Assembly (NCBI GenBank): GCA_009779265.1
Contig: WREP01000001.1
Location: forward strand, 62,001-126,000
Direction of reading: 5' to 3'
Origin: Betaproteobacteria bacterium
GTDB taxonomy: Bacteria; Pseudomonadota; Gammaproteobacteria; Burkholderiales; Rhodocyclaceae
DNA: 64,000 nt
A program made the translations under genes and the position numbers. Positions 639-25,763 of this stretch are shown here, piece after piece (the stretch's first letter is position 1; every line of letters starts with the position of its first letter). The notes beneath the pieces were generated by a model, which made no database searches, was not told the origin of the DNA, and was given only the letters and a program-made list of their open reading frames with translations.

Positions 639-815
639 GTGCAGGCTTTCGTGCGGAAAAAGCGGAATTTTACCCGAAGCTGGACCACTATCCGGTTCAA
701 TTGCATGAACAAACGCATACCGGGCGGCGCGATCGGTAGCGGCGACGGCGACGTGGCGCGCATTGACTTTTGCCATCCCCGCCGGTATCGTCACCTGTTG
801 CTGGCGTTTCGCTGG

Positions 816-868
816 CCGCGCCGATTTGACTCTGCTTGCGGGCGCGCGACAAATGCCGCTAAAACGGG
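816..868 (+). ncRNA. SAM-II riboswitch aptamer (metX leader)
   Basis: CCGCGCCGATTTGACTCTGCTTGCGGGCGCGCGACAAATGCCGCTAAAACGGG matches the SAM-II pattern CGCGC-yGAUUUrAC-N-GCGCGyGAyAAAUG-N2-GCUAAAA-nGGG as recalled; P1 CGCGC/GCGCG pairs; lies upstream of metX. Confidence 0.85.
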
Positions 869-873
869 AACCG

Positions 874-907
874 CCCAGTTCGCGTTTTCGGCCAACTGGG
901 TTTTTTT
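874..907 (+). terminator. intrinsic terminator/attenuator between SAM-II aptamer and metX
   Basis: CCCAGTT-N13-AACTGGG followed by TTTTTTT, ending 16 nt before the metX ATG. Confidence 0.8.
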
Positions 908-24572: not shown

Positions 24573-25763
24573 ATGCAAGATCCTATCGTTATCGTTTCCG
24601 CCGCCCGCACCCCGATGGGCAGTTTCCAGGGCGCTTTTGCCGGCCTGACCGCCGCCAATCTCGGCGCCGTCGCCATCAAGGCGCTGGTCGAGCGCGCCGG
24701 CATCGACGCCAGCCTGGTCGACGAAGTGCTGCTGGGCTGCGTGCTGCAAGCCGGCCAAGGCCAGGCGCCGGCCCGCCAGGCCGCGTTGCAGGGCGGGCTG
24801 CCGCTCTCCGCCGGCTGCGCCACCATCCACAAGGTCTGCGGCTCGGCCATGAAGGCCACCATGCTCGGCCACGACGGCATCCTCGCCGGCTCCTACAACG
24901 TCGCCGTGGTCGGCGGCATGGAGTCGATGACCAACGCCCCCTACTTGCTGCCCAAGGCGCGCGGCGGCTACCGCCTCGGCCACGGCCAACTGCTCGACCA
25001 CATGTTCCTCGACGGTCTGGAGGACGCCTATTCTCCGGAAAGCCGCGGCCGCCTGATGGGCACTTTCGCCGAGGAATGCGCCGCCAGCTATGGCTTTACC
25101 CGCGCCGCCCAGGACGAATTCGCGGTTCGCTCGACCCAGCGCGCCATCGCCGCCAGCAATGACGGCAGCTTTACCTGGGAAATCGCCCCGGTCACCGTCA
25201 CCGGCAGGAAGGGCGATGTCGTCGTGGACAAGGACGAAGGCCCGTTCGCGGTAAACGTCGACAAGATCCCGACGCTCAAGCCAGCCTTCAAGAAGGACGG
25301 CACGGTTACCGCCGCCAATTCCTCGTCCATTTCCGACGGCGCCGCCGCGCTCTTGCTGATGCGCGCCTCGCAGGCCGAAAAACTGGGCTTGCAGCCGCTT
25401 GCCCGCATCGTCGGCCACGCCACCAATGCCGGCCTGCCGGCGCTGTTCCCGTCGGCTCCGGTCGGCGCCATGCAAAAACTGTTCGCCAAGACCGGCTGGA
25501 CGACCGATGCGGTCGACCTGTACGAAATCAACGAAGCCTTCGCCGTGGTCACCATGGCCGCGTTGCACGACCTCAAGCTCGACCCGGCCAAGGTCAACGT
25601 GCATGGCGGCGCCTGCGCCCTCGGCCACCCGATCGGCGCTTCCGGCGCCCGCATCATGGTCAGCCTGCTCGGCGCGCTGAAGAAATACGGCAAGAAGCGC
25701 GGCGTCGCCGCCCTGTGCATCGGCGGCGGCGAAGCCACGGCTCTGGCGGTGGAAATGCTCTGA
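24573..25763 (+). CDS. acetyl-CoA C-acetyltransferase (thiolase)
   Basis: KVCGSAMKAT, NVHGGACALGHPIGASGARI. Confidence 0.94.
   Translation: MQDPIVIVSAARTPMGSFQGAFAGLTAANLGAVAIKALVERAGIDASLVDEVLLGCVLQAGQGQAPARQAALQGGLPLSAGCATIHKVCGSAMKATMLGHDGILAGSYNVAVVGGMESMTNAPYLLPKARGGYRLGHGQLLDHMFLDGLEDAYSPESRGRLMGTFAEECAASYGFTRAAQDEFAVRSTQRAIAASNDGSFTWEIAPVTVTGRKGDVVVDKDEGPFAVNVDKIPTLKPAFKKDGTVTAANSSSISDGAAALLLMRASQAEKLGLQPLARIVGHATNAGLPALFPSAPVGAMQKLFAKTGWTTDAVDLYEINEAFAVVTMAALHDLKLDPAKVNVHGGACALGHPIGASGARIMVSLLGALKKYGKKRGVAALCIGGGEATALAVEML

Follow-up and report, generated by a model that had tools for sequence, protein, structure and literature searches.

A probable SAM-II riboswitch controlling metXW by transcription attenuation in a Dechloromonas-like betaproteobacterium

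The locus examined here lies at the start of a 64-kb stretch of DNA (hereafter the window) and contains two genes on the forward strand: metX at 923-2047, encoding a homoserine O-acyltransferase assigned to the succinyl type by NCBIfam (NF047916, 668 bits, cutoff 560), and metW at 2044-2655 (TIGR02081, 248 bits, cutoff 189.5), which overlaps metX and belongs to the same operon. The neighbouring genes are dcd, oriented divergently, and an AmpG-like gene 3' of metXW. Among the named isolates searched, the closest MetX protein was that of Dechloromonas agitata (86% identity).

A consensus scan placed a promoter at 763-791 on the forward strand, with a -35 element TTGACT (763-768), a 17-nt spacer and a -10 element TATCGT (786-791), from which a transcript start at about 798 is predicted. 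The same promoter block, TTGACTTTT...GGTATCGT, was found 5' of nearly all leaders in the host genus. Between promoter and aptamer lies a short hairpin, P0 (800-806 paired with 810-816, forward strand), which directly abuts the first aptamer helix. Nearly all leaders of the genus have a short hairpin of varying sequence in the same place, immediately on the 5' side of P1 (mean z -1.8 for 35 sequences, a few of them from other genera), and in this genus the transcript probably begins with P0. From position 817 the leader reads CGCGCC GAUUU GACUCUGC UUGC GGGCGCG CGACAAAUGCC GCUAAAACGGG, and 3' of the aptamer it continues with AACCG CCCAGUU CGCGUUUUCGGCC AACUGGG UUUUUUU. The metX start codon is an ATG at 923. 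Its probable Shine-Dalgarno sequence, recognized by its sequence GGGAA at 914-918 on the forward strand, is located outside the aptamer and 3' of the terminator, and relatives have CAGGA or CGGGA at this position.

The SAM-II aptamer spans 817-868 on the forward strand. Helix P1 is formed by 817-822 and 841-846, the third strand AUUU is at 824-827, and the P2 core pairs UUGC (836-839) with GC-U-AA (858-862), extended by an outer P2 at about 831-834/865-868; the pseudoknot partner strand as a whole is GCUAAAACGGG at 858-868. Searching the entire window with Rfam at gathering cutoffs returned no matches. With permissive settings, the model RF00521 (SAM_alpha, SAM-II) aligned over its full length with 29.3 bits (cutoff 36; E-value 5.9e-5 in 301 nt), and in a search of the genome this match was the sole one to RF00521 (E-value 1.2e-4). 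Relatives were then gathered using RF00521 together with an organism-naming pattern scan, and a covariance model, R1, was built from 51 diverse aligned sequences from which the genus-type GCUAAAACG sequences were left out; a few canonical copies from other loci of the genus were retained, so that R1 excludes the genus-type sequence and not every genome of the genus. R1 scored 62.4 bits on 817-866 (E-value 2.2e-16). The next best R1 match in the window, at 25644-25699, reached 15.7 bits (genome-wide E-value 0.25), and the R1 matches in the window other than that in the metX leader were regarded as chance. The preliminary description had tied the SAM-II assignment to the RF00521 cutoff, which the alignment formally misses. 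We attribute this shortfall to the Rfam model, because no more than 51 of the 135 Burkholderiales genomes with an RF00521 match exceed the cutoff and because R1 gives such a high score; the gathering cutoff itself is a curation threshold and not a biological feature.

The motifs AUUU, UUGC, AAAU and GCUAAA were invariant over the 51 other sequences and all are kept in the metX leader, as is the bulged U of SAM-II (U860). In P1, two pairs covaried in alignment A2 and both controls were exceeded, and for the whole structure 23 cells were altered on both sides, compared with 10.9 in shuffles; the P2 core did not vary and is uninformative by itself. The element is located where a SAM-II riboswitch is expected, in the leader of a methionine-pathway gene, and the genes downstream of homologous leaders include metX, metZ, metH, metY and metK. 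In the structure of the SAM-V riboswitch, whose core superimposes on that of SAM-II, the SAM site is formed by two U:A.U triples around the sulfonium of SAM and a bulged U pairs with the SAM adenine (PMC6061858). The residues likely to be equivalent in the metX leader, U826, U827, U836, U837, A861, A862 and U860, are all retained. Judged by sequence, 817-868 is confirmed as a complete SAM-II aptamer, as the preliminary description had proposed. A chance resemblance to SAM-II is ruled out by R1, a model without genus-type sequences. Two related classes were also rejected: the SAM-II long-loop model gave 15.1 bits (cutoff 44), and for SAM-V no match was obtained at E-values up to 10, with the Shine-Dalgarno sequence falling outside the aptamer. 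Compared with SAM-II as modelled in RF00521, the metX leader shares the H-type pseudoknot, P1, the four invariant motifs and the position ahead of methionine biosynthesis genes, and differs in its shorter loop (GACUCUGC), its GC-rich P1, the extra P0 hairpin of the genus and its betaproteobacterial, Dechloromonas-like host. SAM-V has a nearly identical SAM pocket and triple-helix core (PMC6061858); in contrast to the metX leader it is translational, with a short P2a that usually includes the Shine-Dalgarno sequence, and it has an extra P3.

An intrinsic terminator follows the aptamer at 873-907 on the forward strand. Its stem (873-880/894-901) consists of seven G-C or A-U pairs and one G-U pair (dG -14.5) and runs into a U7 tract at 901-907; the stretch 869-910 folded better than all of 200 dinucleotide shuffles (z -3.3). 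The CCCAGTT/AACTGGG stem and T7 run described previously are as stated, while the distance from the T-run to the ATG is 15 nt instead of the 16 given. A simple promoter and terminator scan called no terminator in the metX leader, probably owing to its loop-length limit of 8, which the 13 nt separating the outer arms exceed. Terminator-like hairpins followed by a T-run within 140 nt after the aptamer were found for 143 of 181 homologous aptamers (79%) and in 14 of 661 control windows drawn from the same loci (2%).

The preliminary description did not include an antiterminator, and adding it renders the mechanism concrete. The hairpin lies at 861-888 on the forward strand and pairs AAAACGGGAAC (861-871) with GUUCGCGUUUU (878-888) through ten pairs and one G-G mismatch (dG -10.1). 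It takes up the ligand-contacting 3' strand of the aptamer as well as the 5' arm and loop of the terminator, and because it shares both strands it excludes the pseudoknot and the terminator alike. The metX leader accordingly combines a terminator with a mutually exclusive antiterminator that overlaps the aptamer, an arrangement expected of an attenuation riboswitch. When growing transcripts were folded without the pseudoknot, which is outside the scope of the folding program, the antiterminator dominated for 3' ends at 888-899 and the terminator took over at 901. An equivalent pairing often recurs among 136 leaders with differing sequences (e.g., GCUAAAGCG...CGCUUUAGC), with a mean z of -1.43 (p 1.6e-10, 71 clusters below 70% platform identity) and 8.1 aptamer-strand bases paired, compared with 5.3 in shuffles. 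Leaders with this combination of aptamer, terminator and antiterminator are found in a range of Proteobacteria. In some relatives (e.g., the loci L004, L054 and L060) the aptamer strand had no clear pairing to the terminator. The antiterminator, as far as these leaders indicate, is a common and not a universal design, and the platform varies.

Sequence and comparison with relatives, through the identity of the aptamer, its pocket residues, the terminator, the mutually exclusive pairing and the conservation of these elements, point very strongly to a SAM-II riboswitch that controls metXW by transcription attenuation. SAM-responsive termination of metXW, suggested in the preliminary description, is the best reading of a leader whose terminator and antiterminator recur among homologs; we infer the binding of SAM, the kinetic choice between folds and repression in vivo. 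RNA polymerase would initiate near 798, and P0 would be made first, followed by P1. With plentiful SAM, the ligand would bind the H-type pseudoknot as it forms and keep 858-868 within P2, so that the antiterminator pairing of 861-871 with 878-888 would be blocked and CCCAGUU (874-880) left free; the terminator could then fold and transcription would halt at the U7 tract ahead of metX. With scarce SAM, 861-871 would pair with 878-888 once the latter is transcribed, before the 3' arm of the terminator exists, and by occupying the terminator 5' arm the antiterminator would allow polymerase to read through into metXW. The predicted stabilities favour the terminator (-14.5) over the antiterminator (-10.1), so that a kinetic effect would be needed for read-through in the absence of SAM. 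For the SAM-II leader of metZ in Sinorhizobium meliloti, high SAM in cells led to more short terminated RNA and less mRNA, and promoter activity and RNA stability changed too (PMC9373788). That system, in which SAM-II is likewise followed by an intrinsic terminator, can by analogy be taken as a direct precedent for SAM-II termination control, in a different gene and an alphaproteobacterial host. The metX switch taken alone is an ordinary, well-formed riboswitch, and its antiterminator offers a precise, testable model of how SAM-II might control termination.

Three other explanations of the leader were weighed. The aptamer might act on translation with the hairpin being incidental, given that SAM-II can affect ribosome binding in S. 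meliloti metA (PMC9373788) and that the metK-type elements of the genus, described below, carry a hairpin able to pair near the Shine-Dalgarno sequence. We consider this very unlikely, as the metX Shine-Dalgarno sequence at 914-918 is past the terminator and outside the aptamer, the hairpin ends in U7 and beats every shuffle, and a terminator was found after 79% of the homologous aptamers but in only 2% of the control windows. It is also highly improbable that the aptamer is degenerate or shifted in ligand, retaining a SAM-II-like fold in a lineage that has lost the response to SAM: a low Rfam score and a weaker outer P2, which here contains U-G pairs and a C-A mismatch, would fit such a loss, but every pocket nucleotide is retained, 76 of 77 genomes from the genus carry SAM-II-type elements, and most metX leaders within the genus preserve P0 together with the aptamer and the switch pairing.

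That the real feature is an antisense sRNA gene of family RF02424 (Bp2_Cand287_SIPHT), the likeness to SAM-II being secondary, we regard as scarcely credible. This model is associated with the same methionine-gene leaders in Burkholderiales and differs in being drawn on the strand opposite the SAM-II leader; it matched antisense to SAM-II leaders at seven loci (817-884 on the reverse strand of the window, L004, L051, L097, L107, L251 and L253), and an sRNA of the family has been seen by RT-PCR in Burkholderia (PMC3521395). At the metX leader, however, RF02424 scored 10.4 bits against a cutoff of 70, and the forward strand carries the conserved promoter as well as the aptamer, the terminator and the gene that follows. 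The authors of the family located Bp2_287 upstream of methionine genes and themselves proposed a cis-acting element for these genes (PMC3521395). RF02424, filed as an sRNA, may be the wrong strand of a SAM-II leader.

RF00521 matches were obtained in 135 of 300 Burkholderiales genomes, with 51 genomes above the Rfam cutoff, which consequently misses most betaproteobacterial copies. R1 matched in 114 of 150 Burkholderiales genomes; within the genus it matched in 76 of 77, and across the phylum in 85 of 299. SAM-II with terminators was already reported in beta-Proteobacteria in 2007 (PMC2258182). The switch is of a known kind that is common in Burkholderiales, and its host is unsurprising, contrary to the view that SAM-II in a betaproteobacterium merits special attention. 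Horizontal acquisition from Alphaproteobacteria was set aside as an unnecessary explanation of the host, the motif being present in most Burkholderiales.

In a previous comparative study, SAM_alpha was reported from Rhizobiales and Rhodobacterales alone, and a 'metXZ' element of beta-proteobacteria was presented as new and given no ligand (Leyn et al., 2014; PMC4239095). The published element has six conserved regions with a pseudoknot formed by regions 1-4 and 2-6, a terminator downstream and a suggested antiterminator, and it lies ahead of metXW in the majority of genomes, the downstream gene being metZ in Methylophilales, Nitrosospira and Thiobacillus (PMC4239095). In our SAM-II set, metZ was the downstream gene in Nitrosospira, Nitrosovibrio and Novimethylophilus, and metX in Dechloromonas, Thauera, Herminiimonas, Herbaspirillum and Hydrogenophaga. 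The two thus share the clade, the genes, two interleaved pairings and a terminator on the 3' side. Matched by its published anatomy and gene distribution, the 'metXZ' element is very probably SAM-II below the Rfam cutoff, which very likely gives a ligand, SAM, to an element that has been without one since 2014.

A second R1 match in the same genome (47.5 bits) was located about 60 nt before metK (L178 1501-1554; G000:C61:6320-6373), within a putative SAM-II-like element at L178 1495-1617, for which Rfam SAM-II gave no match even at an E-value of 5. The metK-type element was found in the 33 aligned metK leaders of the genus (within L219-L256) and at nine loci in other Burkholderiales families, all preceding metK (L292, L293, L298, L303-L308); at these nine loci RF00521 gave one weak match (19.8 bits, E-value 0.69). 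In alignment A5, P1 of the metK type shows covariation from U-A to C-G, and the P2 core does not vary. The P1 strand reads AUCGCC or CCGCC, most copies have AGUU instead of AUUU, and a predicted downstream hairpin would be able to pair at the GGAG Shine-Dalgarno sequence. According to our own mapping, the AGUU change would fall on the U whose partner is the U that binds the SAM adenine, and affinity or ligand preference may therefore differ. Beta-proteobacterial metK has been listed without a known regulator (Leyn et al., 2014; PMC4239095), and a search of open-licence papers for a SAM-II-like metK element found none. We tentatively suggest, with somewhat less than even confidence, that in Dechloromonas-like and other Burkholderiales the supply of SAM is under two related RNAs, with a SAM-II switch acting on transcription at metX and a so far undescribed SAM-II-like subclass at metK. 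The metK element is a more novel lead than the metX switch.

Several further arrangements were observed among the relatives. Tandem SAM-II-type aptamers occurred at L003, L027, L029, L249, L251-L253 and L301, where a terminator usually follows the first aptamer and a hairpin close to the Shine-Dalgarno sequence often follows the second. Similar tandem SAM-II pairs have been catalogued before (44 cases; PMC9481103), and the tandem and metK observations may be partly familiar to specialists. In several Burkholderiales (L003, L036, L056, L300, L301), a protein of about 105 amino acids that starts with MYDC or MFDC and has no Pfam match is encoded 3' of SAM-II-type elements. A gene that, by its sequence, looks like metN, the ATPase of the methionine ABC transporter, is preceded at L295 and L299 by a compact form of SAM-II that has a terminator and a shortened linker.
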